This document shows positions 33,528-57,836 of a DNA stretch of 64,000 nt, piece after piece. Position 1 is the first letter of the stretch. Each line of letters begins with the position of its first letter. This DNA comes from Flavobacteriaceae bacterium (GTDB taxonomy: Bacteria > Bacteroidota > Bacteroidia > Flavobacteriales > Flavobacteriaceae). Made by a program: the position numbers and the translations under genes. The stretch is from positions 44,555 to 108,554 of the forward strand of contig PACX01000013.1 in the NCBI GenBank assembly GCA_002702895.1, written 5' to 3'. The notes beneath the pieces were generated by a model. That model searched no databases. It had not been told where the DNA came from and was given only the letters and a program-made list of their open reading frames with translations.

Positions 33528-34277
33528 TTATTCTGTTTTAAATGAGTAAATAAGGGAGTAACTGCTATGAGTTCCGTCCGATGTTTTTACTCTCCAATAA
33601 TAAGTAGTAGCTGCATCTAATGCAACATCTAATGTCTTGGCAGATAGATTGGTTTGGGCTGAGGGTGGTGTTTGTTTTCCATCAGTCTTGTCAACATAAA
33701 GTGAATAAGTAAGTGTATCTCCAGTATCTGGATCACTACCATCCCAAGTAAAAGTTACTTTTCCATCACCATCTCTAGAAGCAGTAGATCCTGATCTAGG
33801 AGACTTTAAGTCAGCTGGGAATGGAGCATAATTAGTAATTCCTGTACCTGCTAAATAAAACTTCCAAGTATCACTTGCAGTAGAAGTAGTAGAAGAAGTA
33901 CTTTTAGAGGTTATATTCCAAGAATAAGGAACTCCCTTGTCTAATGTTACTTTGGTGGTGGTGGAAGTAAGACCTGTTTTATTTGTAATAGTACTTGTGT
34001 TTAAATTAGTAATCTTAAGGTCATAGGTATTTGTGTTTGCCGATGCAGTCCAAGTAAATGTTACTTCACTTTGAGTATTAGACACACTTGTACCTGTTTC
34101 ACAAGTTTTATTATTAGCAGGAGCAGTTAAAGTAGCTTTTCCAGGTGGATTTGGAGTTCCACCTCCACCTCCGCCTCCGCCGCCTCCGCCGCCGGAGTCA
34201 TCTCCACCGCCACCGCCACAGCTTACTAGAAGGGTTAGAGTAAAGAGAAAACTAAAAAACTTTAATGTGCCCTTCAT
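33528..34277 (-). CDS. Poly-glycine lipoprotein with Fn3-like domains
   Basis: This 249-residue lipoprotein has a signal ending LLVSC (Cys20), followed at once by a low-complexity region of about 25 residues, nearly all glycine with two aspartates and a serine, and then TPNPPG. The rest looks like two fibronectin type III-like beta-sandwiches: residues about 50-150 (TLTAPANNKTCETG, TFTWTASANTNTYDLKI, VPYSWNITS) and about 155-248 (FTWDGSDPDTGDTLTYSLYV, TTYYWRVKTSDG). Acidic residues soon after the lipidated cysteine are a feature of surface-exported Bacteroidota lipoproteins, so surface exposure is plausible but unproven. The ATG overlaps the stop of the cohesin-like gene by 4 bp (ATGA), so translation should be coupled. 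It is the last gene of the operon. Confidence 0.85.
   Translation of the reverse strand: MKGTLKFFSFLFTLTLLVSCGGGGGDDSGGGGGGGGGGGGTPNPPGKATLTAPANNKTCETGTSVSNTQSEVTFTWTASANTNTYDLKITNLNTSTITNKTGLTSTTTKVTLDKGVPYSWNITSKSTSSTTSTASDTWKFYLAGTGITNYAPFPADLKSPRSGSTASRDGDGKVTFTWDGSDPDTGDTLTYSLYVDKTDGKQTPPSAQTNLSAKTLDVALDAATTYYWRVKTSDGTHSSYSLIYSFKTE
34159..34220 (-). repeat. GC-rich (GGN)n tract encoding poly-glycine
   Basis: About 62 bp of near-pure GGN codons stand out in a genome of about 30% GC. The repeat encodes the glycine linker after the lipoprotein cysteine and could vary in length by slippage in steps of three bases. Confidence 0.8.
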
Positions 34278-37200
34278 CTCTTAACAATTTTAAATGTTTT
34301 TCTTACTGTTGGACCTTCCATCACTACAATGTAGGTTCCTGTAATTTGTCTAGATAAATCAATCTTTGTTTTTCTAGAGAAGTCTTGTATTTTTTGTTCT
34401 TGAGTATAAATTAAATCACCCTTCTCACCAAATACACTAACTTGAACCGTTGTATCCTCACCAGACACATGTACACTAACATCCTGATTGGTTGGATTAG
34501 GATAGTATAGTATATCTTCCGATATAAAGATCTCTCTTTCTATCACTCCTTGACACTCAAGGTTTGTACTTATCTTAATAATACTAAGACCCGTTTGAAG
34601 AGTCGTAGTAAAGTTATTTCCCTTAACCTGATGCATCTCTCCATTAATATCAATATTATAAAGGCTAGATCCATCTAACTGGATATTAGTAGTTCTTTTA
34701 TCATTATCTACATCTATAAAAGCAGATAAAGGCTTTGGCTCACCTATAACCACTTCAAAACATTGTTCGTAGTTCGCCTGACCATCTACCTTAAAGCAAA
34801 CAGTATAGGTTCCTTTACCTAAACCGGTTACAGAGGCTGACTTATCCTCTCCAGCTATAACTACATCATCCTTGCCAGTAATGGTAATAGTATAATCATA
34901 AGAGTTGTCCTCCACACTAAGGCCTATAGAACCATCCGTGTTACCAATACAAGTAGCACTAGTAACCTCAACCTTATTGTTGTTCACTGGTAAAACGAAA
35001 ATAGCACAGCCATTTACATCAACAACAGATCCCTCAGGTGTATTTGGACACTGGTCGTTAATATCTAAGACCTGGTCATTATCATCATCATCATCACATA
35101 TATCTCCAATATTATCCTTATCAGCATCTGCTTGGTCTGTATTAGCTACTGTTGGGCAGTTATCTAAATTATTTAAAATAGTATCTCCATCTTTATCATT
35201 ATCACAGGCATCCCCTATTCCATCACCATCTAAATCAGTCTGATCTAAATTTGCAACATTTATACAATTATCCAGAGAATCAATCACACCATCATTATCT
35301 GTGTCTTCACATACATCTCCAATACCATCAAAATCAGAATCAGCCTGATCAGCATTAGGAATAACTGGACAAGTATCTTTATTATCTAATACACCATCTC
35401 CATCTGAATCCTCACAAGCATCCCCCTCTCCGTTAGAATCATAATCTCTTTGATTAGAATTTGCTACATTGGGGCAATTGTCTAATGAATCAACAACTCC
35501 ATCTCCATCTACGTCACTTGCACTCGAGCTTAACATAGAAGTTACTGTTAAAGCATCTAAAGTTCCTTCTTTAATTGAAACTGTTTTTTCGGAGGTAATT
35601 ACTGGTGTATCATCTTTAGTATCATCCAAAGAAACTACTTTAATTGAAACTTCATAAATATTATTTTTATTTGAATCTTTAGGTGTGGCAAATACTGGAG
35701 CTGTTGAAAAAGACAACTTCCCTGATGAAGCATCCAGCAAAAATACATCTTTATCATTACCACTATATAATTCATAAGAAACGCTAGAAGAAGAGGAAGA
35801 AGTTCTTATATCGTCAGAATCATCAAATGATCCTCCTTTATTATTATCTCTATAGACTTGAACTGTAAAATCATTTATAACAAAAGGGTTTGGATCATCA
35901 ATAATCTCAACAACTACTGTTTCTACAGCACTAGTACTATATCCATCTGAAACTGTAATTCCTAAAGAATAAGATTGTTTTGTTTCAAAGTCCACATTTT
36001 CAGGTTTGGCTACATATAAATCACCATTATCAGCAATAATTCCAAAAGTGCCATCATCATTCCCACTAACTATTTTAAAATCATCAAGAAAGTTATTTTG
36101 ATCAGCATCACTAGCCTTAACTTTATAGAAATAAGTATTAAGGGTTGGGTTTTCTTTCAAGTAAGCTATCTGATTTGGGTCTACAACTGGGTCAAATTCA
36201 CTGGAACCTCCAACTACAATTATTCCAGTTGATGTTGCTTCAGTAGTAATATTTGAATTGTCTTTTCCAGAAATGATAATATTTTCAATAGCTACATTAT
36301 AAGCACCATTTACTATATCCATTGCTGAATTATCAATTTTGGAAACTGATAATGGCATATTAAAAATAGCTCCATTATTTCCTGAGAAAACAGAATTATT
36401 ATTAGAATATATTAAGAATCTATATTTTACGCCACCTAAAGAGGATTGAGTCAAAATAAAATCTGAAGTTCTTGCAGCAATTAAATCAGATGAAGATGCG
36501 CTGATAGAAAACTTAGGTAAAATCGAAATAGTACCTTGCATGGATTTGTGATTTCCACATATATAGTAGTAAGTTCCAGGTGAAACTGTAGATAAGTCCA
36601 CCTTAACTGTTCCTGATGTTGCTCCTTGATTTGTGACTCCAGCAAGTTGTTTAGTTGAATCATAACCACCATCATTACTTAAACCTGTAACAATATAAAG
36701 CGGATGGGTGCTTCCTGCATTATTTACAAAATTTATTTCATCACCAACATAGTGAGTTATTCCAGGGTCTTTAGCATTACTTAATTCAGCAAATGTAAAA
36801 TCTTCATTAGAATCTGCTGTAAGAGTCCAAGTAAAGGATTTTGTTTCTTTTGGAACACTGATATCAAATTGCATTCCTTTAACTTCATTTGAGTTTAATA
36901 CAGAAATTGGAACCGTGTTTACCGCATTTTTATTTACAATCGAATTCTTCATCACTAATGTATTCCTGTTTTTTAGTGTTCCTTTAATTTGAACAGAATC
37001 CATTGCATTCCCTCCGTCGTGAATAAATTTTACATAAGTATTAAAATCATTAGAAACATTTGAAGGAACTAATTTAATTTCTTGATTAGAAGTTCCATTT
37101 GCATCTATTTCTATAGGAAATGAACCAATTATTGTAACATCAGGATTGGTAGAAGAAGCTGAAGTTATTTTAAGTTTTTTATTTCCAGAATTTTTATATG

Positions 37201-38536
37201 GTATTGTTTTATCATTATAACTATTTCTGGTTAATTCTCCTAAATTTAAAATATACTTGCCACTACCGTCATTGAAGACTGGTGACTCAAAAATAAATTT
37301 ACCCGTTATTAAATTAATACTTCCATTTTCAGAAGCAGATGAAACATTTGTTAACGCTTTATTAGTTAAAACTACATTACTAACATTTATGGCATATGAA
37401 CCTGGGTCTACAATTTTGTCTGGTTTAACAGAGAATTTCACTATTTCTCCAATAGGCTGAGCTAAAACTGCATTACTAGGAGAATAGGCAACTACTCTAA
37501 GAAATTTGTTTCCTGAATCATCTGTTCGAACATTAGAGCTTATAACATGATCTGTTCCTGATTTAAGTAAACTTGCACTTTTAGAAATAAGCTCTATTTT
37601 AGAATTTTCAGGTGTTATATCAAATTGAAAACTAGTAATATCCTCATCTCCATTTATTGAGACTTTAACATCTGAAGTTTTATTATTCTCTGCATCTGCA
37701 TTGGATTGAACCACCACCCTATTATCATTATAAACTTTAGCTTCGAACTTAAATTCTTGTACTCCTTTTCTAAATTTGTTAGGATCATCTGAATCTAAAA
37801 ATATAGACTCCTTAAAAGTTCCATTTGCAGATGTATTTACTCTAACATTGATTAATAATGTTGCATCAGGAGATAACTTTTGTGGCCAAGTAATTGGAGT
37901 GCTTTTATCACTCCACTGAGTTAAAGAAAATTTAGTTAATTCACTTTTGTCAAGAGAAACATTTAACTCTTGTGTTCCTTTATTTTCAATAACCCATTGA
38001 AAATCAGTTGTTGAATCTTTATAAACACTTCCAAAATTATGATTATTAGTATTCCAATTAAAATGGGGGGCGAGAGTAGTTATTGTTCCATTTTCTAATT
38101 TTAATGTAAGATTGGTATTGTCTTCTTTTGAAGCAACTACACTAGCTAATTCAAAGTTGTAGTTTCCATAATTCATACTATTATGTAAACTAAGATCCAA
38201 TAACTTACCATTTCCAGTTGGAATTGTTTTATTTGAAGGAGAATAGATTAATATTCTCAATTTTCCTGAAACAACCTCTTTTACAGTTATTACATGATCA
38301 GAGCTGTCACCACCCAATCTAGCTTTTATTAAATTATATGAAGATTTGTAAGTAAAATTATCCCCGTCATACTTAACATCAAATTGTAACGCCTTAATAG
38401 CTGTTGCAGTAGTTAAATGTAAATCTAATGCAAAATCTTTATCATAGCCATACGCCCCATCCTTAACGGATAGGGTGTCTTGGCTATATAGCGTTACTCC
38501 TATTAAGAGTAATAGTACTTGAATAATTCTCTTCAT
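34274..38536 (-). CDS. T9SS-secreted multidomain protein with cohesin-like modules, nested cupredoxin and TSP3 repeats
   Basis: This 1420-residue protein has a signal peptide (residues 1-18). Cohesin-like beta-sandwiches lie at about 20-150, 270-405 and 530-775. The first two are followed by choice-of-anchor/ASPM-SPD-2-like segments (HNFGSVYKDSTTDFQWVIEN). The third cohesin-like module is split by a plastocyanin-like cupredoxin at about residues 563-678 with ligands His611, Cys660, His663 and Met666. Two cadherin-like domains (about 780-1000) and calcium-binding thrombospondin type 3 repeats (about 1007-1175) follow. A SprB-like beta domain and a type A T9SS sorting domain (ILYYPNPTNQDVSVHV to KTFKIVKR) end the protein, so it should cross the outer membrane by T9SS. 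It starts 6 bp after the stop of the dockerin-bearing ORF and overlaps the lipoprotein gene by 4 bp. Confidence 0.88.
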   Translation of the reverse strand: MKRIIQVLLLLIGVTLYSQDTLSVKDGAYGYDKDFALDLHLTTATAIKALQFDVKYDGDNFTYKSSYNLIKARLGGDSSDHVITVKEVVSGKLRILIYSPSNKTIPTGNGKLLDLSLHNSMNYGNYNFELASVVASKEDNTNLTLKLENGTITTLAPHFNWNTNNHNFGSVYKDSTTDFQWVIENKGTQELNVSLDKSELTKFSLTQWSDKSTPITWPQKLSPDATLLINVRVNTSANGTFKESIFLDSDDPNKFRKGVQEFKFEAKVYNDNRVVVQSNADAENNKTSDVKVSINGDEDITSFQFDITPENSKIELISKSASLLKSGTDHVISSNVRTDDSGNKFLRVVAYSPSNAVLAQPIGEIVKFSVKPDKIVDPGSYAINVSNVVLTNKALTNVSSASENGSINLITGKFIFESPVFNDGSGKYILNLGELTRNSYNDKTIPYKNSGNKKLKITSASSTNPDVTIIGSFPIEIDANGTSNQEIKLVPSNVSNDFNTYVKFIHDGGNAMDSVQIKGTLKNRNTLVMKNSIVNKNAVNTVPISVLNSNEVKGMQFDISVPKETKSFTWTLTADSNEDFTFAELSNAKDPGITHYVGDEINFVNNAGSTHPLYIVTGLSNDGGYDSTKQLAGVTNQGATSGTVKVDLSTVSPGTYYYICGNHKSMQGTISILPKFSISASSSDLIAARTSDFILTQSSLGGVKYRFLIYSNNNSVFSGNNGAIFNMPLSVSKIDNSAMDIVNGAYNVAIENIIISGKDNSNITTEATSTGIIVVGGSSEFDPVVDPNQIAYLKENPTLNTYFYKVKASDADQNNFLDDFKIVSGNDDGTFGIIADNGDLYVAKPENVDFETKQSYSLGITVSDGYSTSAVETVVVEIIDDPNPFVINDFTVQVYRDNNKGGSFDDSDDIRTSSSSSSVSYELYSGNDKDVFLLDASSGKLSFSTAPVFATPKDSNKNNIYEVSIKVVSLDDTKDDTPVITSEKTVSIKEGTLDALTVTSMLSSSASDVDGDGVVDSLDNCPNVANSNQRDYDSNGEGDACEDSDGDGVLDNKDTCPVIPNADQADSDFDGIGDVCEDTDNDGVIDSLDNCINVANLDQTDLDGDGIGDACDNDKDGDTILNNLDNCPTVANTDQADADKDNIGDICDDDDDNDQVLDINDQCPNTPEGSVVDVNGCAIFVLPVNNNKVEVTSATCIGNTDGSIGLSVEDNSYDYTITITGKDDVVIAGEDKSASVTGLGKGTYTVCFKVDGQANYEQCFEVVIGEPKPLSAFIDVDNDKRTTNIQLDGSSLYNIDINGEMHQVKGNNFTTTLQTGLSIIKISTNLECQGVIEREIFISEDILYYPNPTNQDVSVHVSGEDTTVQVSVFGEKGDLIYTQEQKIQDFSRKTKIDLSRQITGTYIVVMEGPTVRKTFKIVKR
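35010..35516 (-). repeat. Thrombospondin type 3 repeat tract
   Basis: Five to six tandem units of the form D-x-D-x-D-G-x-x-D-x-x-D-N-C-P are encoded here (for example DGVVDSLDNCPNVAN and DGVLDNKDTCPVIPN). They lie between the cadherin-like region and the sorting domain and are expected to bind many calcium ions. Confidence 0.9.
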
Positions 38537-38542
38537 TTATCT

Positions 38543-40786
38543 CTATTTCTTAATTAGCTTGTGAACACTTATAATCTCTTCATTTCCTTTCGTTATCATT
38601 CTCACTTGAACAGTATAAATTCCAGAAGCTAACATACTAACATCCAAATCGTTTAATCTTCCCATATTTTCTAATGTTGTACTGTAAACTGAAACGCCTA
38701 GAACATTATAAATATTAACATTCAATGTCTCAACATTTTTAGTTACATCTGTTAATAAATTAACATTAGAATTAGCAGGGTTTGGATAGATTCGTATGGA
38801 ATCATCAAGAGAATCAAAGAATCTTTCATCTGAGTATTTTAAATCAAGAACTAAACCATCATTGGTTCCTGCTCTAAGATTATTAATTTCTAAGTCTTCA
38901 TTATCATTTATATCCAGATAATCGAAAACTACATTTGTTAACTCATTTATTGGTTGATTATTATAACTATATATTAAGAATGTTCTCTTCCCATCTTCAA
39001 CAAAATTAACAACTGAAAGATTTTTTAAGTCTTCAGATAATTCATAATCAATAGTAGCATCCATTGAGAATTGTAATGAAGTTACTGGCTTTTCATTTTC
39101 TAAGTAAATCCTGCCATTAGTATAAACTAAAGTTGCATTACCAACTGGCTTGTTAGAGAAGTATTCCCAATCATATGGATCATAATTAGAACCATTGGCA
39201 ACACTACCAGTACCATTTAATATAATATTAACAATAGCTGAAATATCTGTTACATCAATCTTACCATCCCCATTAACATCTGCAACTTCTTGAACAAATA
39301 CTTTTGGATTATTTCCAAGGATATAATCTAGATTTGTTGTTAAGTCTAAGATATTTACTCCATCATCTCCATTAGAATCTCCTAATTTAAATGCAGAAGT
39401 AACTGTATACTTCTTCTCTTCTGAGAATGTAGAACCAATAAAACTAGCATCAATAGATTGAACTGCAACATAATAATCACCCATTGGAACATTAACTTTC
39501 CATGAAAGGTTATTTTCTGCATTTCCAGCATCAGCAACTGCTTTCACCCCATCAATATCAGATCCAGCTGCTAATATTTCTTCACCGCCTGGTGTCGTTC
39601 CGATTCTTACAGAATATGTTAATCCTTCTGAAGGTGTTTTCTTACCATCTGCATCAGTATCCACAGCACCTGACCAAGTAATTACCATTTCAAATAATGC
39701 TTGCTCATTACCAGCTGAGCCAGTTCTTACAGAAGTTTTATTTCCTCCATTGTCCGTATCAGGATTATAAGCTCCTAATCTAGATCTTTGGAAATTAACT
39801 TCTGTTGGAGGGAATGGTCTAGCATTTAGTCCATATGTCTTTTTAACACCAACAGATTTCTTAAGAGGCTTACCTTCTCTGTAATCGCCTGAATCATCAT
39901 TTGCTATACCACCTCCTGCAGGTCCTGCAAATCCTCTAACATTCATTACTACATCAGAAATAAACCCGTAGTAACTGTTATTATCTTGTTCAAATTTATT
40001 TTTACCAGTAATAACTAAATCTGCATCTAAATCTCCATCAAAGTCAGCTACCCCAATATTTGCATCCTCATACATAGATAGATCATAACCAGTATCTACC
40101 ATGATATTTGACTCTGTATTCCAAGTAGACATCTTTGTTACTTTACCTTGACCACTAACTGTTCCAGAATAAACAACATCTGCAAATCCATTACTATCAA
40201 AGTCTCCAAATACAAATCTACCATCTCTAACAGCTGGAAGACCAACATTCATATCAGTAAATCCATCATCACCATTTTTGTATGCCTTAACAATATCTCC
40301 AGATGACGACTGTCCACTGAATAGTACGTCTAGCTTACCATCAGCATCGAAATCAACAAAATCTGCTGTACCTTCTTTAACTGAGACAAAATCATTGGCT
40401 TTCTCTTCAAAATATACTTCAATAGGTTGCACTGCAACTCCATTTTCATCTAATGCTCTTTTATTTTCAAAAAGAAGTGTTTTATATCCATCAAATGAAT
40501 ATCCAGAAATTAAGAAATCGAAATCTCCATCATTATCAACATCACCAAAGTCATATGATGCAAAGCTTAAATTACTTAATTTACCTTCCTCAACTACACC
40601 TTTAGGATCAGTTACAGTAAATTTATCAAAATCTAAACCAGTAGTTTCTGTATCACCATCAGCTATAGAAAACATTGCCATAACGGTTGTTGCTTCATTT
40701 GTAAGTTTAGAAGATTGACCCGCACCAATTATTTCTACAAGTCCATCATTATCTAAATCCTTGATAGCAAATTCAATATTATACAC
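38543..40786 (-). CDS. C-terminal part of the giant adhesin: FG-GAP repeats, dockerin and T9SS sorting domain, after an in-frame stop
   Basis: This 747-codon open frame opens at a GTG but has no signal peptide. It continues the giant ORF upstream in the same frame: the 30 codons at 40787-40876 also read as sensible protein (TTNQDEGLYREYWREHYPFD). It encodes FG-GAP/VCBS-type repeats (DLDNDGLVEIIGAG, DVDNDGDFDFLISG, DFDADGKLDVLFSG, DFDGDLDADLVITG) and an Fn3-like domain. A paired EF-hand dockerin type I-like module follows (GDSNGDDGVNILD and DVNGDGKIDVTD). The protein ends in a type A T9SS sorting domain (IRIYPNPANSNVNLL to SVHKLIKK). I judge this to be the C-terminus of one 5212-residue protein, not an independent gene. 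The next gene starts 6 bp downstream. Confidence 0.85.
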   Translation of the reverse strand: MYNIEFAIKDLDNDGLVEIIGAGQSSKLTNEATTVMAMFSIADGDTETTGLDFDKFTVTDPKGVVEEGKLSNLSFASYDFGDVDNDGDFDFLISGYSFDGYKTLLFENKRALDENGVAVQPIEVYFEEKANDFVSVKEGTADFVDFDADGKLDVLFSGQSSSGDIVKAYKNGDDGFTDMNVGLPAVRDGRFVFGDFDSNGFADVVYSGTVSGQGKVTKMSTWNTESNIMVDTGYDLSMYEDANIGVADFDGDLDADLVITGKNKFEQDNNSYYGFISDVVMNVRGFAGPAGGGIANDDSGDYREGKPLKKSVGVKKTYGLNARPFPPTEVNFQRSRLGAYNPDTDNGGNKTSVRTGSAGNEQALFEMVITWSGAVDTDADGKKTPSEGLTYSVRIGTTPGGEEILAAGSDIDGVKAVADAGNAENNLSWKVNVPMGDYYVAVQSIDASFIGSTFSEEKKYTVTSAFKLGDSNGDDGVNILDLTTNLDYILGNNPKVFVQEVADVNGDGKIDVTDISAIVNIILNGTGSVANGSNYDPYDWEYFSNKPVGNATLVYTNGRIYLENEKPVTSLQFSMDATIDYELSEDLKNLSVVNFVEDGKRTFLIYSYNNQPINELTNVVFDYLDINDNEDLEINNLRAGTNDGLVLDLKYSDERFFDSLDDSIRIYPNPANSNVNLLTDVTKNVETLNVNIYNVLGVSVYSTTLENMGRLNDLDVSMLASGIYTVQVRMITKGNEEIISVHKLIKK

Positions 40787-40876
40787 ACTTTCAAGGAAAT
40801 CACCACCGTTATTATTATCAAATGGGTAATGTTCTCTCCAATATTCTCTGTATAGACCTTCATCTTGATTAGTAGT

Positions 40877-40879
40877 TTA
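40877..40879 (-). other. In-frame TAA stop inside the giant gene
   Basis: The codon before it ends REDDP and the codons after it read TTNQDEGLY in the same frame. There are no indels in the surrounding frame. The stop separates the giant N-terminal part from the only T9SS sorting signal. Confidence 0.95.
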
Positions 40880-43800
40880 TGGATCATCCTCTCTTGCATC
40901 ATCAATCAGTCTAGTATTTAAGAACATTCGCAATCTAGTTCCACTACTTTCTTCAATAGCAACAATTAAATCTGTTTGACCGTCATTGTTGAAATCTCCA
41001 AATTCAAAATTAGACTCTCCATAGTGAGCCCCATATACAGGAACAAAAACTTCATTTTCAAAAGCATAAATATTTATTGCTTGTTTGTCTACTCTAACTC
41101 CATAGCCATATCTGCTTGTTTCCATACCTACATTGGTACTAATTAAATCTTTGTCTCCATCTCCATCCATATCCATAAATTGTAATTGAGTAGATTTAGA
41201 AGGAATTAATCTTCTATCTATAATTCCACCAAGATTCAATAGCTTCCACTCATAATCAAGAGTGATGCTAACTGTATCGGAGAATACTCCACCCATATTT
41301 CCTCCATCAATCGCTTGAACAGAAGCATAATAAGTGCCTGGGTTCAATATAACCTCTCTAGAATTTAATGTAGAAAGTGATGGAATGTTTATAAGTGTAG
41401 ATCCAGTTTGATCATCACTATTTGCATAAATAATATTATCAAGTCTAAATGGACCCTCATTATCAGTTTCTCCAGTAATTGGATCGAAATATCCTGTTCC
41501 AATTTTTAAATCATATCTAAATTCATTGGAAGAATTATCTGTAGGTTTATCCCATTTAAATTCTACACTACCAACTCCATCATGGGTTGCTGTAAGATTT
41601 GATATCTTATTAGGAGCTGTATTTAAGTTATTATTATTTTCAGCTTTATATAAAATAGCCTTAGCTATTCCATTATCATCCAGTCCTGTTAAAAATAAAT
41701 CAAGGTCTCCATCTTTATCATAGTCAATCCAATCTGTACTACTTTCTCTCAACCCTTGAATAGTTAAATCTGATTCAACTATTCCATATTGACTTCCAAA
41801 ATAAGCTGGGAAAGTAGTATAGAGTTTTGTAATTGCCGCTCCAGTATTTGGATCTTCACCAGCAATAATCAAATCACTTTGGCCATCATTATTATAATCA
41901 GCAAAATCAAAATCTACGTTCTTTAACTTAGGCAGATCATTTAATGCATTTAAATTACTACGTCTCTCGATATTTCCTCCCTCATCTTCACCAATTGCTA
42001 AATAGTCTAGCTCACCATCTCCATCAATATCTGCATAGATAGTATTACCATTTTTATAACCAGCGTGAACATTAAATCCATCTCCATCATTTAAATTCCC
42101 TTGTTCATCATAACTATCTCTATAGTAGGTATTTACAAATCTCATACGATGAGATTGAAGATTAGTAACATCTCCTCTTGATCCATTAGTAAATAGATCA
42201 TTATCTCCATCTTGATCTGCATCTACAATATCTATTTCTCCATTTATTACACCCGAATCATTGAATAAACCTTCATTAAGGAAATTGAAATCTCCAAGAT
42301 TTGTATAATAATAAGTTCTAAATTGATTTTCAGAATCAATTCCAGACATAATTAAATCTGGATCTCCATCATTATCCAAATCACCCCATTCCATATCAGA
42401 TTGGGATAACCCCTCTACTTGATAATCTTCCATTAATTCAAAGAAGTTACCTTCTTGATTAATATAAAGTTCAGCTTTTCTAACATTTCCTTCTGCATTT
42501 CCTGAAACTGCAACATCTAACCATCCATCTTGATTAACATCTACAAACTCTATATCTCCACCAATAAATTTGGTGAAATTTTGATTTGTATTTTCAAAAG
42601 TTCCATTATTGTTTATATATACATTTGTAATGGTTCCAGTAGATGATTGTCCCATCAATGCAAGATCCATATCTCCATCTTGGTCATAATCACCCCAACT
42701 AACCTTTCCATCTTCAACTCCTTCAAAAGGAGCATCATCAACTAAGGTTAATCTAGTAGCCTCAACAATAGTAACTTCGGAAATATCAGTTGATGCAGCT
42801 GTTCCATTTTCAATTCCAGCAACATTTATATCGATAATTTCATCTTCTTCAAACCAAGGATCTTTAAATGCACCTAAGGTAATATTACTTGTTGTTTGCA
42901 TAGCAGGAATTTCAATTGTTGCACCTAATCCAACTTTACCAATTGTTGAACCTTTAGCATTTGTTACTCCTAAAGAAGCTCCAGAAACTGCAACGTCAGT
43001 GGGGCTATTCAAATTAGTATCTTGAATAACATTTGCAACATAAGGACTTCCATCATCTAAGAAAGAAACTTTTACTACAATATTATAATTGGAAACTGAT
43101 ATGTATAGGTTTCCTTCAGAATCTTTATCAATTCCTCTAAAATTTGGTTCTTCTCCACCATTTAATCTTAAGCCATAAACATAGTTTCTAATGTTTGGTA
43201 AGTTATATATCTGATTAGTGTTGAAGTCTACAACATGAATATAACTACTATGGCTCCAATATTCCTGATATACAGAAAGATAGTTCGTTACATACATTTT
43301 ATTACTGCTAGCATCCATAAAAATTCTAGAGGGGTATGTAAATGATCTATCGTCAATAGAATTGACTTGATCATCATTTGTTATCCAACCATTATTACCC
43401 TTACTACCAGCAATTGTTTCTGTTGAAACATTACCAGATTCATCAATAGTTAATTTTCCAATATAATGTTGATACATATCTGAGAAATAAAGAATATTAT
43501 TTACAAAGTGTAAACCTCCAACTCTACTTATACCTCCATTACTACTATTAGCAAGTGTTATAACTTTTTTACTATCAGCTATATACATGTGTATGTTATC
43601 GTTAGATGAAAAGAAAACATTTCCAGTATTTAAGTCAGCCGTAAGAGCTATTGGCCATTCAGCTCTAACCTCTGAAACATCAGTAAGTTGATTGTATGAA
43701 CTTCCATCTCTATTATATGGGCTACCTATAAATGCACAAACTGTTCCATCAGCTTTTATTTCCCTAATGGTATGAGCTTCATAATCAGCAACAAGAAATG

Positions 43801-46800
43801 AACCATTTAGATAAGGTATTACAGTTAAAGGAACATCAAATCTTGAATCCTCTCCTTTACCATTAGCAGAACCAGGATTATCTGTCTTACCAGCTAAATT
43901 ATTATACCCAAAAATTGAAGATACTGTATAATCAAGCATAGCTGTTGCTGTTGAGTTATTACTGTTAGATTTTGTTAAATCAATAGCTACTGTAGTTGGG
44001 TTCAATTTAGCATTAGAAAGATTTGCGGTAACCACAACCGATCCATTATTTTCAGCGATGGATGTTGCAGATGTAGCGAAAGTAACTACTGGCTCTTCAT
44101 CATCACTTATTTTAATCTCTAATGAAGTTTTAGCCCCTAATTCTACATTACCAGGGTTTGCTATGGAAACTTGTATAGTTTCTACAGGCTCTTCATTAGT
44201 ATCCTGAAGACCTGTTAATGTTACTATTGCACTTTGAGATCCAGCAGCAATGGAAAAACTTTCAGCTGATGATTTATAATCTGATGTTCCATCCTGAGAA
44301 TTTCCTTTAGTTGCTGTACTTCCTGTTCCGAAAACTAAATCTACAGTAGAAGGCAATTCAGAAGAAGTAACTGGTCCATACTCCACTATGTAATGTCTAT
44401 AATCATTTTGGTCATGTACATACCATTTATTTCCATAGGTAAGTGCATAACCAAAACCGTTTTGAACATTATCCCAGTTGTCAAAATTTTGGTAGTCAAA
44501 AGTTCCATAAACATTAGACCATCCGTATTCTCCTTGTTCTCTTTTTGTTCCAAGCCATGTTCCATTGTGTATCATTATAGAAGAAATAAATTCATTTTCT
44601 TCCTGACTATCAATAACTAATAATTGACCTCCAACTGAAAGAGCATTTTGATTTGCATCAGCCCATTTTGAACTATATCTTGAGAAATAATATTTATGAC
44701 CTTCAAATTCACCCATAAATTCAAAATCATTAGAAGCCTCAGAAGGTAACTCTGTCTCTTCCCAGAAACTAGTAGCTCCAGTAGCATCAGTCAAATAAAC
44801 CTCTAATTCTAAAGTCCCATCTGCTTCATCTAGCACCAAGCTTTCTGCATCTAATTCAATTTTTGGAATCAATTCATCACTTTTTAAAGTAAGATCAATT
44901 GCACCAGAATTTGCTAAAGTTCCTCCAGTAATAGTATTTGAAGTAAATCTTATTGTTTCATCAGTCTCATAAACTACATCATTAATAGATTTTAAATTGT
45001 AAGTAACTGAATTTTGTCCAGCAGGAATTGTCATTTTTGGTTTAAGCTGAACTTTTCTTATTCTATTATCATCAACATCGACTACAAATAGAGCTCCCCC
45101 ACCATATGCAACAAATCGTGGTTCTCTATATGTTGCCTCATCTTGAGTTCCATCTCCATAATCATAATCACCTGTTCCTGAAATAGTTTCTACCTTAGCA
45201 CCTGAGGCATTTGTTAAATCAGAAAGTTTTCTTATTCTATGATTATTTGCATCCCCAACATAAATATTGTCATTTTCATCAATAGCTAATCCAGAGGGAT
45301 CACGGAATTTTGCATTGGTTCCATATCCATCAGCATAATCATGCCACTCACCTGCAACAGTAGAAACTGTGCTACCATCTGCTGATATTTTTCTTATCCT
45401 ATCATGTGCAGTAACATATACATTATTGTTTGAGTCAACAACAATACCTCCTCTTAGGTTTGATAATTCTGCTTCTAATGCATCTCCATCATTTTCACCC
45501 CAATTTCCACTTCCAGCAAAATCAGTAACAATCCTATTTGTTCCATTATCTACTACCTTTCTTATTTTAGAATTATCTGCGTCTACTACATACATAACGT
45601 TATTAGAATCAAATGCAATAGACTTAGGTCTATTAAATCTAGCTTCTGTTTCATTTCCATTGTCATCCCCTTGATCATATCTTTTACCAACATATCTGGA
45701 CAAGACTCCTGTACTCATTTTAATTCTTGAAATTGCATGCGCATTTCTTTCAACAATATACATGTATCCACCATTAATTTTTACATCATTAGGATGTGTC
45801 AATGTTCTGTTTAATTTATCTCCATCTGTATTTTCTTGATCGCCATCTCCCCAGTAATATCCAGTACCAGCATATGTAGAAACTTCTCCCGATGGAGTTA
45901 TTTTTCTAATCACATTATTCCATTCATCTGCTAAGTAAACATTTCCGGAAGCATCTACCACTCCATTTTTCATACCATCAGAAAATTCTGCTTCATCAGC
46001 ATCTCCATCTAAATATCCATCATTTCCATCACCAGCATGAGTAGTCACTCTATTTAAATCATTAGATCCAAAGTCATTTCCAAAAATCGCAATTCCAGCA
46101 CCTGAGGATGTAAAATCTAATGAAATATCAACAGCATTTAATTTTGGATTGTCAATATTTGCACTTATTGTAGTATTGGTTGTTACTCCATCAGAAGCAA
46201 CTTCACCAATTGTTGCACTAGCAACAGATAATGTAACCGCTGGTGCTTCATCATCACTAATTGAGATAGTAGCTGTATTATTTAATGGATTTGAACTTGA
46301 ATCCTGTGCAATAACAGCTTGCCCAGGTGTTTTCATCGTAGTAGTAATAGTTTCTATAGCCTCATCAGCACTATCATTGACACCCGTTATAACTACAGTA
46401 GCACTTGGCTGACCCTTAGTTATAGTTACTGTTCTATCTTCAGAGGGAACTCCAATACTAGTAGTATAATCTGTTCCATCCTTAGCACCTGTACCACCAA
46501 ATTCAATAACAGCAGTAGCATTTAAATCAGAAATTGCTGAAGAAAACTCAATAACAAATTGAGAATGCCAATTACTTTGTCCATTAAACCATAATCCTCT
46601 GTATCGAATTTGTGTATAAAATCTATCAATATAATCTGGATTATAATCCCAACCCCAATTGGTGTAATCACTTTGAGCATCATTGGTCCATTTCCAAACA
46701 GAATTTGTTGAATCATAGGAATGTCCTATCCAGTGATTTAACCATTCTCTGTTATCCATATTAAATTCAGGATCTTTTTCATAAATTTTATTTGTTATAA

Positions 46801-49800
46801 AATCATTCTCTCCAGCTGATGTTACCACAGCCAATTGACCTCCTAGTGTACTAGCAAGACTTAAAGCATCAGAATAAGAGAGTCTTCCCTTATCATCATC
46901 TTTTGACGAATAATATTTAGATCCATTGTATTCTCCTAAATAGTAAAAATCAGCCTTTTCAGAAGCATTCATATCAGATTTAGCACTAGAAAATGCATCT
47001 GCAAGACTAACCACTAGATTAACTGTTCCGCCATTTTCATCAACAACATCATCACTTGCTGATAATTTTATTGTTGGAGCGCTATCGTTACTAATAACTT
47101 TAGTTACAATATTAGAAAAAGAATTAACAGCACTAGATACATTTGAAACAGATTGTACTGCAACAGTAAATGCTTCATCATTACTTTCATACAACTGATC
47201 GTCTATTCCATTTATAGTAATAGAACCTGTAGTTGCTCCTGCTGCAATAGTAATTGATGGTTTAAGATCAATTTTTCGAATCTTATGGTTTTCTGTATCT
47301 GCGATATATATTCCGTTAGTAGTTACAACCATTCCTCTCGGAGATTTAAATTCAGCAGAATCGAAATTTCCATCTGTGAATCCATAATCATCTCCCGTAA
47401 TAGTTTCTACTCCTTCTGCAGTAATCTTTTTTATTTTATTTTGATCAGCCGCATACATTGTTAAAGAAGATTCAGAGGAATCAATAGTCAAAGCTCTAAG
47501 ATTTCTCAGTTGTGCTGAAGCTAAAGTACCATCTCCATGCCCCCAGTTATCGTTCATATTAGCATAAGTTGTAACTACCCCGCCAGGAATAGTAACTTTT
47601 CTAATCCTGTTCTCATCAGCAACATACATAACATCATCATCTCCGGACTTATCAATTACAATTGAATAAGGATTTCTGAATTTTGCATTATCTCCAGTTC
47701 CATCTTCAGTTCCATATTCGCCTGATCCTACAAAATTACTTGCGGTCCAATTTCCACCACCATCAACAACTAACTTTTTAATTTTGTGACTTTCCGCTAC
47801 ATACAAATTACCTGCACTGTCAAAAACAAGACTTCGTGGACTGTTATATTGAGCTGTATTTTTATCTCCTACTGCATCACCCCAATCACCATTTCCAGAA
47901 ACTAAGGATACATTACTTGAAGCATCAATTTTTCTAATTCTATTTCTTCCTTCCTCTGCAATAAATAATTCATTTCCGGCATTATTAAATGCTAAAGCAC
48001 TAGGTCTAGAAAAACCTACTTCCATTTTGTTCCCTGTTTCTCCATAGTGATCCCAATCTCCATTACCAGCGTAAGTAGAAACTACTCCGTCAGAAGTTAC
48101 TTTTCTAATTACATTATTATCGTAATCTGCGACATATATATTGCCAGAACTATCTGCAGTAATTTTCCCTGGATGGTCAAATTTAACAGATGTTCCTGTT
48201 CCATCTTTAAAACCATAACTACTTCCGGCAAGAGTGCTTACCTTCTGTAATTCAGCAACAGAATAATCTACGTCACGAGTAGCTCCTCCATCGGTTATTG
48301 TTAAGTTAAGTTTACTACTGGTAGTTTTTGCTTTATCACTTGTAGCAGTTATAGTTACTGAGCCTCCATTTTCATTTACATTAGCTGCACTAGTAGCCCA
48401 AGTAACTGCTGGTGCTTCGTCATCAATAATACTTACAGATGCTACAGAATTAGAAGCATCATATGTTCCATCTGTTATGTTATCCGTTATAGTGTAAGTA
48501 ATAGTCTCTGTGTTCTCATTTTCAGAATCATTAACACCAGTAACAGTAAGTTCTGCCTTAGACTGACCAGCAGAAATAGTTATATTTCCACTTCCAGTAA
48601 ATGTGGCATCCGTACCACTAGTTTCTGAAAATCCTGTAGATCTTGTAACCACGTAAGGAATAACTACATCTTTTGCAGAAATTGTTCCACTAAATTCAAT
48701 AATAAAGAATCTACCATTACTTTTTGGAAGGTCGTTCCATCTTCCATTGTTTCCAAAATATTCAACTGCATCTTCATCTCCTGCATTATTAGGTTCTCCT
48801 CCATTCCAATTAACATAAGTAGAATCACTTCCATTTGCCCAAACGAAAGTTCCCTCTTCATCAATATCATTGAAACCTATCCAATAAGAATCCCATTTAT
48901 AATTATCTCCTAAATTATTTTTTATAAAATTATTCTCAGCTTCACTATTTATGGTTAAAAGATACCCTCCTAAAGCAGTTGCTCTATCTTTTGCTTCTGT
49001 CCAATTTAACCATTCATGAGCTATATAATATTTGTGGTCTTGGTAATTTCCAATGTAAGGGAATTCACCTTTTAAACCATCATCTAAATCCATTTTTGTA
49101 CCAGATTCTGAAGCACCTCCAATTTGGAAGGAAACTTTAGAAACTCCTCCATTTTCTGCAATACTTGTTTCACTTGCAACAACTTGAACAGTTGGAGCAG
49201 AATCATCACTAACAAGTATAATTCCATTAGTGCCATCAGTTGCATTAGTTGCTTTTGTTGTAGTACTATCAAAACTTAAATAATCTGTACCGGATTCAGT
49301 AATAAGATTTTTAGTATTAATAGAAACATTAGTTCCAGCAGCTACTATTTTAATAGTCTCATTATCCTCATAAAATGATTCATCTTTAATGTTTAATACG
49401 TAGGTTCCTGTGGTTTGACCAGCTGGGATTCTAATTTTAGATGAAAAATCTATAGTTCTGGCCTTTTTATCATCATATTGTACAAAGACTAAATTTCCTG
49501 TTGTTGGATGTAAAGTCATTCCCATTGGTCTTGCAATTTTAGCAGTTGATAAAGCACCATCTACGGTTCCTTCATCAGAGCTTGAATCAATAATTTTAAC
49601 TAAACTTCCAGACGAGGCAACATATTTGTAGATATAACTATTATTTCTAGCTCCAAAATATATATTATTTGCACTGTCTAAAACTAGTCCGTATTTTTCA
49701 GACCATCCTTTTTCTACGACTTTAAGGAATTTAGGAGATCCTGATTGAGAACCAAAAGTGAATTTTTTAATTCCATAATAATCTCCAACTAAAACATCAC

Positions 49801-52800
49801 CATTACTGTCAATATCAATCGCTCTAGGTCCTTCAAGATTTGCAGAAGAAGCTGAAACATTATCTTCACTCCTTCCCCAATCATTATTAACAGCTCCAAC
49901 ATTAACAACTTTTATATTGTTAAAGTCTTCAGCATAAGCATTGGTATAAATATTGTCTGAATCGGATGTATAAATTTTTCTAACTGTATTTTCATCTGTA
50001 ACATAAATTATAGTACCTGCAGCATTTACAGCAATTCCTTTTAAATATCTAAATCTAGCATCAGTTGCAATAACAGCTGAAGCACTTCCAGAGGGAACCA
50101 TTGTTTCACTCCAATTATTACTTCCGGCAACATAAGAGATTTCATTATTACTTGGGTTTAGGATTCTTATAGCGTTTTGATCAATAAAATATATTTTTCC
50201 ATTACTATCAATATCCATATCCCTAAGGTCTTTAAACTTAGCGCCAGATCCAGTACTTGGAGAAGTAGAAAAGTCTCCATAGCTTCCACTTCCAATTGAA
50301 CTAATAGTTCCTCCGGAAGTCATTTTCCATATTTTTCTACTACTTGCATCACCAGCATAATAATTTCCACTTCCATCAATAACAATACCGTATACCCTGT
50401 TCATCCCTGTAAAAGAAAGATCACTTAAATAACCCTCATCAGTAGAAGTAAAGTCAGTACCTGCTGTAGCAGTACCTGAGATGGTTAAAGCAATGGTAGA
50501 AGCAAATGATTTAGCATAATCTAATGTAGCTACTATATTCACACTTTCATCAGTTCCTTCTGTATATGAAACCTTATTAGCCGATGTAGTCATAGTGGCA
50601 ACAGCATCTTCATTATCCTGAATATTAATTGTAAGTGTCTTTTTACTTCCTTTCACTATAGCTACCGAAGCATCTGCTTCAGTTCCAGTTATTGTAATAG
50701 GCTCTGTGCCTTCAGCTGTAGTATCATTTATTACTGTTACTGTAGCAGTAGCCGAAGATTGACCATTTGCAATTGTAATAGAATTTGCATTTATAGTCCA
50801 GTCATCTCCTGAATCATTAGTAGAATCCCCATTTGTGTTTTGAGCTGAACCAGAATAGGCTAAATTTACAGTTGTATTAGCAGAAGCATTTACACTGCTA
50901 TCAAACTCTATAATATACCTAGCATATTGTGTTTCCGCGCGATTTTCCCAACCATTACCGTTAGCAGTTCCATTATAATACTGAGTAGCACCTTTCTGAT
51001 TTTGTTGATCCTGAGGCCAGGATGTATCCCAGTTAGTATATCCGCTTGCTACATTATAAGTAGCTCCATTAATCCATTTCCATGCAGCTCCATTTAATTT
51101 ATAATTAAGTCCAATCCAAAAATGTTCAGTTTGTTGATTAGCTTTATTACTCGCTAATTCACCTAATAACCAGTTTTCCTCAGCTGAAGTTTCAAATACA
51201 ACTAGATAACCACCTTTTGCAAGAGCATCTGCTTTTGCAACACTATTGGTTACATTTTCATCTTTATAATAATATTTATGTCCTCCATATTCTCCTATAT
51301 ATTGATATCCTAATGAATTGGTAGCATAAGCAGAAACTGCAGCTGCATCCATATCCCTTTGAGCTGAGTAGAAAGAGTTACTAACTAAACTAGCTGTTAC
51401 TGTTACATTACCGACAGCTTCAGAAACTGTATCTGAGCTTACATCTAAAACAATTTGAGGTTTAGATTCGTCAATTGCAGTAATTGCAATATTAATTGTT
51501 GCTGTAGCACTGTCTACTGTACCATCATTTGCTTTTACCTGAAAAGAATCTGTGGCATTTGAGCTAATGGATGAAGTTGAAGTATAAGTAAGGATTCCGC
51601 TAGGAATAGAATTTCCGTTAGATAATTCTGAGCCATCTGTAGCGGTTAAAGTTCCACTAGATGGTGTACTAACAACAGTATAAGTTAAAGTAGTCGAATC
51701 CACATCAGATCCTAGAATTGTAATGTCTACTTTGTCTTTTTCATTAACTGTTATAGTAGATGAGGCATTAATAGTTGGGGCATCATTAACAGCAGCAACA
51801 GTTATAGTTGCAGTAGAAGTATTACTGTCAGAATTGGTATCATTGGCCTTAAAAGTAAATGAATCAGATGTTGTTTCTCCTCCGTTGTGTGTGTAAGTAA
51901 CTGTGGAACCTGCTATTTGAGCACCTGCAGAAATTGCTGCATTAGAATTGTTAGGATCTGTTAATGCACCATTAGTCGGTACCGCAACAACGATATATTT
52001 TATAGTTCCAGCTCCAGTATCAGAATCTGTAGTATTTGTTTGTAAATCATATGTTATATTTCCTGCTTCGTTTAATGTAAAACTTGCAGCAGTGGTAACT
52101 GGTGAGCTATTTACCGATGTTACAGTAACTGATACTGTAGCGGGGCTACCATTTGCAGTTCCATCGTTTGCAGAATAAGTAAAACTATCTGATGTTGTTT
52201 CGGTTCCATTATGCGTATAAGTCCAAACTCCTGAATTACTGATGGTAACCGTTCCATTGGTTGGAGCAGTTTCCAATTTAAATGTAAGGTTGTTATTGGC
52301 AGTTTCTACATCTGTAGCTGCAAGGGCAATAGGACTTTTTGTTCCACCTTCAGCAACAGTTATACTAACAGCACTAGCAACTGGCAAGTCATTTACAGCA
52401 GTTACAGTAATAGATGCAGTAGCAGCAGCAGAAGTTAATTCTCCATCACCAACTGTGTAGGTGAATGAATCACTAGTTGTTTCTCCTCCATTGTGAACAT
52501 ATCTTACATTTCCTGAACCATTGTCAATTAGGTTACCATTAGTTGGTTGAGAAGCTATGGTAAATACCATTTGATTTAAAGTATTGTCTGTATCTGTGTA
52601 TGAAAGATCAAATGTGCTTTCTGCGCCTTCATTTAAGGTAACAGTTGTTCCAGTCGAAGTTGGAGCATCATTAACGTTAGAGGCAAACAAAGTAACAAAT
52701 GTCTTTTCGGATTCATCACCATTTGAGTTTTTAATCTTATACTCAAAAGTATCTCGTCTATTTTCTGAACTATCATGCTGATAAGTGAAACTACCATCTG

Positions 52801-54544: not shown

Positions 54545-55396
54545 TTATCGATTCCAAAGATCTTGTTCAAAATCTAAAATCTCTTTTTTTATTCTTTCTG
54601 ATTCCAAAATAGACTCTAAACCTTTCTTTTTATAAGCTTGTATAGGTCTGTCACCATAAAGATTGTCTTCTTTGTAGATATAGGAACTAAACCTTCTGGA
54701 AAGTAATAGCTGATCAAATGATATTCGATTGGCATTACTGGTGTCATTAAAAACTAGTTCTTGATGTAGAATTTCCCTGATACTGGGATACCATATCCAG
54801 AAAAGATTAGTTTTCTTTTCTTCATCTCCATCTAAATTTTTTAAATCTTCACCAATAGGCATTAATCCAAGTAATCTATACATCAACTCACCTCTTCTTT
54901 TGTCAAAATACCACATTCCTTTAATTCTGTAACCTGTAATATCATCAGAGCCTACCTCCTTAGGAATTAATTCACCATCCCCAAAATCAACTTTAGTAGC
55001 TACAATATCCTTTACTTCATCAGGCGAAAGAGGGTATCTAAAATTATCATTAACATCAGAATATATTTTTGTAATATTCCCATTTAAAATATTCTCTTTT
55101 AAGACTCTCCAAAGTGATTTTCTAGTATTTTCGTACAATTCGTCATCAATAGGAAATAAAAGAGGAAAATTTAGTCTTTCATTTAAATCAATTTTTTCAT
55201 AAACAATCTTTGACCATAAAATATCTCTATCATCAATAAACTCATATTCTAGATAGGAATCTAAATCAGATTGCAATTGATCAATATTCTTAACACCAAT
55301 CTGTTCAGGGGTTGTCGAATTTAATATATTAGACTGACCAGATAAGCAAAAACTAATCAGTAAAAAAACTGCATTAAATAGATAAGATAGTTTCAT
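54545..55396 (-). CDS. gldN: Gliding motility / T9SS protein GldN
   Basis: This 283-residue periplasmic protein partners with the lipoprotein GldK in the ring-shaped part of the type IX secretion system. A signal peptide (residues 1-20, ending SFCLSGQ) precedes the conserved GldN domain. It includes DDRDILWSKIVYEKIDLNERLNFPLLFP and the GMWYFDKRRGELMYRLLGLMPIGED region. Length and motifs fit the family. The ATG overlaps the gldM stop by one base (TAATG), so translation is coupled. It is the last gene of gldKLMN and is followed by a clear terminator. Confidence 0.95.
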   Translation of the reverse strand: MKLSYLFNAVFLLISFCLSGQSNILNSTTPEQIGVKNIDQLQSDLDSYLEYEFIDDRDILWSKIVYEKIDLNERLNFPLLFPIDDELYENTRKSLWRVLKENILNGNITKIYSDVNDNFRYPLSPDEVKDIVATKVDFGDGELIPKEVGSDDITGYRIKGMWYFDKRRGELMYRLLGLMPIGEDLKNLDGDEEKKTNLFWIWYPSIREILHQELVFNDTSNANRISFDQLLLSRRFSSYIYKEDNLYGDRPIQAYKKKGLESILESERIKKEILDFEQDLWNR

Positions 55397-57126
55397 TAGT
55401 TTATAATAAGGAAAAATGATTCAACTTCGTAATTTGGTGTTACTGTATCTCCATCTTTTGAGCTAGCTTTTATATTAGATATTACCACTGCAGTGCCTTT
55501 TCCAGCACTTTTAATATCAAGTGCAGCTTTGGCATTTCTACTTGCTTTATTTCCATTTACAGTTTTTGCTGGAGAATTTCCAACCTTTATGTCAAAACCT
55601 GTAACAATTATAGAATAGTCATAGAAAAAATCTTTGGGCTTAGTACCAGTAATAATTCCGTTTGTAAGCAAAGTTTTAGAAATAGAACCTCCAGTTTCAA
55701 TAACTTTACCCATACCAGAAACAGACCCCTTACCAGGAGGTGGAGGTAAAATTCTAAATGTTCCTCCATCAAAATTCTTTCTCTTTCCATTTAATATTCC
55801 TGAAACACTAACCCTCATTTCTTTAGCTTTAGCATTTGTAGGCTGAGCAGCCCATCCATTTTTTGTTTTAGTAAATTTTGCATTCGAACTTGTAGGGACT
55901 ATAGTATTAGCAGCCACTCCAGGGATAGAAATAGAAGTTGGATTTCTCAAACCTCTATAAAAGACTTTCATATTATCCGCAGAAACCACCGCAGAATTTG
56001 GCTCTCTAATTATTACTAACTTATGTGAAACAGATATAGACTGAATTTCTCCAGTATTTGGATTCTTTTTTGACAATGTCCCTGTTAAATCATAAGTCCC
56101 AGGAGAGCCTATTCTTTTTTGCAAAACAACTTTTCCTTTTTCTATGATGTATTCATTCTCTCTTAATTTTGTTCCATTTAAAAACAAATCTGCCGTATCA
56201 GGAGAAAATGCCGCATCTTTTTTACCCAATACAAGAGCTGCATCTACCATATCAGTAGTATAATAAACCGGTTTAGATGCTTCAAGTAAAGTTTGAAAAG
56301 TATCTAAACTTGTTCCTTTACCTGAAATTGAAGCTAGAATTTGATTCAAGGCCTTATTTTCTATATACCTAATATCAGATTGCATTTTAGTTAATTTTGC
56401 AAGAGAAGCAATGACAGGGAATTGATAGAAATTATAGATCAAAAAGTCTTGAGAAGTTCCTTCACTATTGATAACTTGCTCAGAATAAGAAAATCTATTT
56501 TGTAAATCACTTTTTGTAGAATCAAAATCATAGTTAATTATTACTCCATCCTCATCCTTAGTACCATCAAGTTGAGTCTTTGCTATTTTAGCTTCCTCTT
56601 CCATGAATACTAAATTATCCAATACTTGATTCATTTTGTTAGGAAAATTTTTGTAATTATTAAGAAACTCTTGTCCTATAGGGTTTAATGCACCTTCACT
56701 ATCTTTAAATAAGATGTCATCCAAAACCAATGATTTATCCATTTCTTGATATGCAGTTACTGTAAATACAGAATCTGTTCCCTTGACAGTAACCTCTTTT
56801 AAATATTTATTTGTTTCACCTTCTTCACCAACTATTAATGAGTCTTTTATACTTTGTATAAAATCAAAAAATTCATCTGATGCCTTTTTGATATCGATGA
56901 CATTAGTTGCTGCTATCTTATAATCTGGAGAATCTGAATTAGATTCTATATTATTATAGATTGCTGTAGAAGAAGCTTCCAATTCAGTAATGGAAGACTC
57001 TAAGTCGTTATTTAAAACTCCTAAAGTAGCAAGAACCTCTTTACCAATATTTAAGGCAAGCATGGCGATAAACACGAGATACATCATGTTTATCATTTTC
57101 TGTCTTGTATCTAGTTTTCCAGCCAT
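55396..57126 (-). CDS. gldM: Gliding motility / T9SS motor protein GldM
   Basis: GldM spans the inner membrane once and extends a long periplasmic shaft toward the GldKN ring. With GldL it forms the proton-driven motor of T9SS and gliding. The conserved N-terminus MAGKLDTRQKMINMMYLVFIAMLALN gives the transmembrane helix at about residues 13-33. The helical D1 domain follows, then Ig-like domains D2-D4 (for example KVVLQKRIGSPGTYDLTGTLS and AAKALDIK-like strands to VESFFLIIN). At 576 residues it is slightly longer than the F. johnsoniae protein. It overlaps gldN by one base and begins 9 bp after gldL. Confidence 0.95.
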   Translation of the reverse strand: MAGKLDTRQKMINMMYLVFIAMLALNIGKEVLATLGVLNNDLESSITELEASSTAIYNNIESNSDSPDYKIAATNVIDIKKASDEFFDFIQSIKDSLIVGEEGETNKYLKEVTVKGTDSVFTVTAYQEMDKSLVLDDILFKDSEGALNPIGQEFLNNYKNFPNKMNQVLDNLVFMEEEAKIAKTQLDGTKDEDGVIINYDFDSTKSDLQNRFSYSEQVINSEGTSQDFLIYNFYQFPVIASLAKLTKMQSDIRYIENKALNQILASISGKGTSLDTFQTLLEASKPVYYTTDMVDAALVLGKKDAAFSPDTADLFLNGTKLRENEYIIEKGKVVLQKRIGSPGTYDLTGTLSKKNPNTGEIQSISVSHKLVIIREPNSAVVSADNMKVFYRGLRNPTSISIPGVAANTIVPTSSNAKFTKTKNGWAAQPTNAKAKEMRVSVSGILNGKRKNFDGGTFRILPPPPGKGSVSGMGKVIETGGSISKTLLTNGIITGTKPKDFFYDYSIIVTGFDIKVGNSPAKTVNGNKASRNAKAALDIKSAGKGTAVVISNIKASSKDGDTVTPNYEVESFFLIIN

Positions 57127-57135
57127 AATTATTTA

Positions 57136-57738
57136 TTAATTGTTCATAGCACTTATCATTCCTTTATATTTAGCATTAAGTGAAGCAACTTTATTTTTCA
57201 TTTTAGCCAGTTCTTCATTTAAGCCCTCAGGAACATGCATTTCACTTGTAGAAGAATTCACTTCAACAAGATGACTGCTTAGAGACTCATAAAGTTTATT
57301 GATTTCATCTAATTTAACTGCTCCTGCATGAATATTAGCATTATAATCACTCATATGTGCATTCATATCAGATGGAACATGAAGAGCACCAATTGATTTA
57401 CTAGCAGCACCTAAATCTTCATTGAGTTTATTTATTTTACTAATGGATGTAGAAACAGCTTTAGCAAGTTCATGAGTTTCAACCTCCAAAGTTTCAATAT
57501 CATCTCCACTTTCAAACCCATCTGGATCAATTGTCATATAACCTTTTAAACCTGAAATAGCAAAAATAATAGCTTCCGTTACAAGGCCTATTGTTAACCA
57601 TGCATTACCAGAAAGGATAAAGGATCCATGTGTTATTTTTAAAAGGGCACCAATAATTACAATTGATGCACCAAGACCAAAAAAGAGCTCTAGTACATTG
57701 TCAGGAATAAAAAATCTTTTGTGTTTAATTGTCTTCAT
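57136..57738 (-). CDS. gldL: Gliding motility / T9SS motor protein GldL
   Basis: This 200-residue inner-membrane protein is the proton-channel partner of GldM. Two transmembrane helices at about residues 17-36 and 46-64 are followed by a cytoplasmic helical tail. Glu55 in GLVTEAIIF probably corresponds to the conserved intramembrane glutamate needed for proton flow, judging from its place in helix 2. The C-terminal ~110 residues carry heptad-like repeats. It sits between gldK (98 bp upstream) and gldM (9 bp downstream). Confidence 0.95.
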   Translation of the reverse strand: MKTIKHKRFFIPDNVLELFFGLGASIVIIGALLKITHGSFILSGNAWLTIGLVTEAIIFAISGLKGYMTIDPDGFESGDDIETLEVETHELAKAVSTSISKINKLNEDLGAASKSIGALHVPSDMNAHMSDYNANIHAGAVKLDEINKLYESLSSHLVEVNSSTSEMHVPEGLNEELAKMKNKVASLNAKYKGMISAMNN

Positions 57739-57836
57739 AATTGTTAATTTTTAAAATTTATTTTTTCAGTTAATTGTTTTTATTAAATATTCTTTAGTTT
57801 CAAGTTAACAAATCTTTTTTAAAAGATCTATAATTA

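Follow-up and report, generated by a model that had tools for sequence, protein, structure and literature searches.

Adjacent genes for a dockerin-bearing giant adhesin and a candidate trivalent cohesin scaffold, both with type IX secretion tails, in Flavobacteriaceae

The window analyzed here is a stretch of 64,000 nucleotides from a flavobacterium with a small genome (Flavobacteriaceae bacterium, assembly GCA_002702895.1, contig PACX01000013.1, positions 44,555 to 108,554); all features described below lie on its minus strand and are numbered from its first letter. Read in the direction of transcription, the locus opens with gldK-gldL-gldM-gldN (54545..59273), which encode the core of the type IX secretion system (T9SS) and were recognized with TIGR03525, TIGR03513 (just below its cut-off), TIGR03517 and TIGR03523. 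They are followed by a gene of approximately 5,200 codons for a giant T9SS adhesin (38543..54181, from the ORF listing and Pfam) and by a gene for a protein of 1420 aa, hereafter the scaffold protein (34274..38536; ORF listing, Pfam, structural model and TIGR04183). A gene for a Gly-rich SusE-like lipoprotein, which carries a long poly-glycine run behind its lipobox, comes last (33528..34277); it overlaps the scaffold gene by 4 bp, and this order is kept in the related genome G016. The scaffold ORF (34274-38536) starts 6 bp past the stop of the ORF encoding the dockerin (38543-40786). The original prediction had placed both ORFs correctly according to the ORF listing, and the tight linkage that it reported is borne out by the 6-bp gap and by an adjacency kept in two genera. 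Both proteins end, as had also been proposed, in a T9SS type A sorting domain, with TIGR04183 scores of 35.8 bits for the giant protein (38543..38791) and 27.6 bits for the scaffold (34277..34504) against a cut-off of 23 bits. Five type A tails were detected in the window's genome, two of which belong to this pair, and the genome also encodes a full-length SprA.

The giant protein, of approximately 5,200 aa, begins MKNTLSSLFLLISLLIYSNP, where a signal peptide is apparent by inspection only. Pfam identified Big_9/cadherin-like repeats, four C-type lectin matches, NHL repeats, Calx-beta and FG-GAP repeats, and the C-terminal part, corresponding to ORF 38543-40786, includes a dockerin, a cohesin-like post-dockerin module (PD) and the T9SS type A tail, in this order. 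As assembled, the gene is cut by an in-frame TAA (40877..40879), so that ORF 40877-54181 and the dockerin ORF form one frame parted by this single codon. The original prediction mentioned neither this stop nor the cohesin-like module behind the dockerin. The frame is open in relatives (G007, G012, G014, G016 and G018), where the site is a variable sense codon for N, S, T or D. The premature stop may mean that the system is broken in the window's genome, or it may be an assembly error. If it were real, the dockerin fragment, which as assembled has no signal peptide, would not be exported, the N-terminal product would have no T9SS tail, and the scaffold would be orphaned in this genome. However, orthologues are intact at the site, and the codons past the TAA differ from those of G007 most often at position 3 (0.25, vs 0.12 at position 1 and 0.08 at position 2); this excess indicates that the stop is either recent or an assembly error and that decay is recent or absent. 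We regard a broken system as very improbable.

The dockerin (39221..39385, aa 468-522 of ORF 38543-40786) matches Dockerin type I (PF00404) with 38.3 bits, against a cut-off of 22.9 bits. It is composed of two 12-residue EF-hand-like loops (~39344-39379 and ~39245-39280), whose ligand positions 1, 3, 5, 9 and 12 read D-N-D-N-D and D-N-D-D-D, respectively. In 10/10 homologues all ten calcium-ligand positions are D or N, and they are invariant except for position 9 of loop 2, which is D or N; the two canonical dockerin repeats described in the original prediction thus stand. A second dockerin candidate (19.5 bits) was set aside, as it resembles an EF-hand within a TonB-dependent receptor. Consequently, a single dockerin is found in the window's genome and it is carried by an adhesin, whereas a cellulosome would have several dockerin-bearing enzymes per scaffold.

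The scaffold protein begins MKRIIQVLLLLIGVTLYSQ, a stretch in which, again, a signal peptide is apparent by inspection only, and continues as Coh1-Ig-Coh2-Ig-Coh3, the last interrupted by a cupredoxin, followed by cadherins, thrombospondin type 3 (TSP3) repeats (35042..35539, Pfam), a C-terminal region and the T9SS tail. Module 1 (38066..38479, aa 20-157) and module 2 (37304..37729, aa 270-411) are each followed by a HYDIN/DUF1573-type Ig spacer detected by Pfam (37742..38065 and 36977..37303), and module 3 (36206..36973) is made of aa 522-563 and 675-777. In one relative only, G007 (L037), module 1 is itself interrupted by an insert exceeding 100 residues.

With the Pfam Cohesin profile (PF00963) the window's modules score 16.1-16.2 bits, i.e. 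under the cut-off of 24.1 bits (16 bits in the case of module 1), but the syntenic protein of G171, a member of another genus, passes it with 29.0 bits. For orthologues of the same genus, one search gave 25.3 bits (G003) and 24.5 bits (G012), while hmmscan gave 19.7 bits for G012 and did not list G003; the margin over the cut-off is therefore not robust. PDB sequence searches by module profile returned no matches for A1 and chance matches for A2, and the top Foldseek rows, repeat-domain proteins aligned across the whole chain, were uninformative on single modules. In the AF2 model of scaffold aa 20-777 (pLDDT 84), modules 1 and 2, which the structural rows span, with module 3 lying outside them, are predicted to have a cohesin fold. 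Their best structural matches are all solved cohesins, including non-cellulosomal ones of Archaeoglobus and Clostridium perfringens, with Z scores of 15-17 and rmsd mostly of 2.1-2.6 Å over 130-137 residues (module 1 matches 6kgc with a Z of 16.8 across 135 residues, and module 2 matches 6kgd with a Z of 17.2 and an rmsd of 2.1 Å across 137 residues). In G171 the third cohesin is uninterrupted and, judged by alignment with it, module 3 is cohesin-like and split by the cupredoxin. The three cohesin-like modules of the original prediction are thus retained, two by predicted fold and one by alignment; the HMM search proposed for confirming the family stays sub-threshold in the window itself and succeeds with the G171 counterpart.

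The insertion in module 3 (36515..36847, approximately 110 residues behind the QFD strand) is a plastocyanin-like cupredoxin. Pfam Copper-bind (PF00127) matched in 8/8 scaffold orthologues, and the H-C-H-M copper ligands H611, C660, H663 and M666 are invariant in 9/9. Among the scaffold segments that were compared, its mean identity is the highest, at 73%, Coh1 and Coh2 showing 64-66% and the Ig spacers between cohesins 44-45%. No cupredoxin interrupts the alignment of the third cohesin in G171, which makes it probable that the copper domain entered a cohesin that already existed. A cupredoxin inside a cohesin is a second unusual feature of the locus, and one that is easy to test.

The dockerin and scaffold genes are adjacent in eight genomes of the window's genus (the window's own, G003, G007, G011, G012, G014, G016 and G018), and by sequence gldN precedes the giant gene in G011, G014 and G016 as it does in the window. 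In G171 (genus g126) a dockerin-bearing giant is directly followed by a Coh-Ig-Coh-Ig-Coh-T9SS protein. Both genes are also present in G402 (g170), where a tandem copy begins behind the dockerin gene at a contig end (L095) and the scaffold gene opens another contig. No genome was found with a scaffold yet demonstrably without a dockerin gene, the scaffold gene of G008 starting at a contig edge. The converse does occur, as in G004 and G005 a giant with dockerin and PD is followed by a gene for a cold-shock protein, and no full scaffold match was found elsewhere in these genomes, which are 68-80% complete. Other genera of the same family encode single-chain Coh-Doc-Coh-T9SS proteins (L111 in G324 and L112 in G401). 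We also would like to mention two isolated loci. G016 has a decayed second copy of the dockerin and cohesin-like unit (L098, G016:C2:231149-231736), which is broken by several stops and looks like the form that G004 and G005 have without a scaffold. In G008, a PKD-like lipoprotein ends in a strong canonical cohesin scoring 48.7 bits (L046, G008:C84:1777-2085); it was not seen elsewhere in the genus and could be contamination.

The module directly behind the dockerin, PD (38807..39151, approximately 115 residues), offers the dockerin a possible partner on its own chain. By profile-profile comparison, PD is a divergent, remotely cohesin-like module that matches the cohesin modules with a probability of 82% and an E of 1.1e-5, compared with 0.8% for an Ig spacer control. 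The dockerin and PD have been conserved together in several genera, including genomes in which a scaffold was not found, and in G324 and G401 two cohesins flank a dockerin on one chain; taken together, these observations make a partner in cis plausible. The dockerin might bind PD within one chain, forming a calcium-locked C-terminal clamp, or between neighboring chains, leading to head-to-tail self-assembly, and the scaffold cohesins would then serve another purpose. This leaves unexplained, however, why in two genera the dockerin gene should have a gene for three cohesins as its immediate neighbor downstream. The PD of the window is moreover short and divergent, and the AF2 model of the dockerin with PD is of low confidence (pLDDT 55, pTM 0.39; top Z 2.9 in the structural comparison) and supports no interface. 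On balance, we consider pairing in cis a serious rival reading, though a rather unlikely one.

A different reading would be that no specific contact is made at all, the cohesins being beta-sandwich spacers and the dockerin a linker made rigid by calcium, structural or vestigial parts of two surface proteins that act independently. The remainder of each protein is indeed a string of repeat domains, the cohesin modules stay under the Pfam thresholds, and some genomes have the dockerin without a scaffold. Against this, not one of the ten calcium-ligand positions departs from D or N in any of the homologues, conservation is higher in Coh1 and Coh2 than in the Ig spacers that adjoin them, and the two genes have stayed neighbors in two genera. 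We find this reading unlikely.

The interpretation that we favor, with moderate confidence, is that of a non-cellulosomal, trivalent, T9SS-exported cohesin scaffold that docks giant adhesins at the cell surface. The giant gene would provide a lectin-rich, cadherin-like adhesin with a calcium dockerin near its anchoring end, and the next gene a trivalent scaffold of the Coh-Ig-Coh-Ig-Coh type. After export, the dockerin would plug into the scaffold cohesins with calcium, so that up to three giant adhesins might be held per surface site and the adhesins clustered. We infer this binding, its need for calcium, its stoichiometry and a role in attachment from several lines of evidence: a dockerin with conserved calcium ligands together with the cohesin fold predicted for modules 1 and 2 (Z 15-17); the same architecture and gene order in G171 and adjacency in the eight genomes of the window's genus; a single dockerin in the window's genome, with two of the five type A tails detected there on the pair and SprA present; conservation of the dockerin (81% mean identity) and of Coh1 and Coh2 above that of the Ig spacers; and the dockerin gene demonstrably missing from no genome found with a scaffold. 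Pointing the other way are the cohesin-like neighbor in cis, the giants of G004 and G005 that have dockerin and PD without a scaffold, the sub-threshold Pfam scores of the window's cohesins and the TAA that parts the dockerin from its signal peptide. The exported cohesin-dockerin pair proposed in the original prediction is thus supported in its fold, dockerin, calcium ligands, tails, linkage, conservation over two genera and single dockerin, whereas the choice of partner is weakened by PD, which may serve the dockerin in cis.

Comparison with known systems places this pair among cohesin-dockerin proteins outside cellulosomes. The cohesin fold, the type I-like dockerin with duplicated EF-hand loops and the multi-cohesin scaffold are shared with the clostridial cellulosome (CipA structures 1aoh, 1anu and 1ohz were matched), which differs from the window in having dockerin-bearing enzymes; the window has a single dockerin and T9SS tails on both partners. 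The matched C. perfringens structures (2vo8, 2jh2 and 2w1n) share the cohesin fold in non-cellulosomal proteins, but come from glycoside hydrolases of a Gram-positive organism, with no T9SS and no giant adhesin. In Archaeoglobus fulgidus, whose cohesin structure 2xdh was among the structural matches of the scaffold modules and whose cohesin/dockerin proteins are likewise non-cellulosomal, one chain carries a cohesin and a dockerin and the adjacent gene encodes another cohesin; this archaeal system is not known to include a T9SS, a giant adhesin or a scaffold of three cohesins. T9SS gliding adhesins of the SprB type are, as in the window, giant repetitive T9SS cargo of genomes with gldKLMN. We know of no SprB that carries a dockerin, and the giant gene of the window differs further in lying directly behind gldN and in being paired with a cohesin gene.

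In the literature, cohesin/dockerin proteins have been cited from A. fulgidus and described as non-cellulosomal in ANME archaea, some with up to five cohesins (PMC9012536), and a giant ORF of Omnitrophota with nine dockerins has been proposed to be an adhesin (PMC10066038). A study of rumen Bacteroidetes reported cohesins and dockerins to be absent, in line with other Bacteroidetes genomes (PMC5831590); against this absence, the window presents a complete candidate pair, linked, conserved over two genera and carried by T9SS cargo rather than by enzymes. A search of titles and abstracts did not find a cohesin-dockerin pair of this kind in Flavobacteriaceae. We put forward, tentatively, that some marine Flavobacteriaceae may assemble giant lectin adhesins via a dedicated T9SS-exported trivalent cohesin scaffold, the third cohesin of which holds a blue-copper domain, a principle unreported for the phylum in the literature searched. 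If the binding holds true, cohesin-dockerin chemistry would be a means to multimerize giant surface adhesins, akin to the docking of enzymes in cellulosomes, and this can be tested with small recombinant modules. T9SS export of a cohesin-dockerin system, part of the assembly principle that the original prediction expected to be new, has a precedent: Ca. Stygibacter (Cloacimonadota) has a scaffoldin whose cohesins stand in tandem and whose C-terminal domain is of the T9SS type, together with secreted dockerin-bearing hydrolases (PMC8542988). The system of the window would be a variant of this kind. In Ca. Stygibacter, hydrolases and peptidases bear the dockerins, and CBM2/CBM3 are found in the scaffold (PMC8542988); in the Flavobacteriaceae-type genomes, the one dockerin belongs to a giant lectin adhesin, and Ig, cadherin, TSP3 and cupredoxin domains are found in the scaffold.
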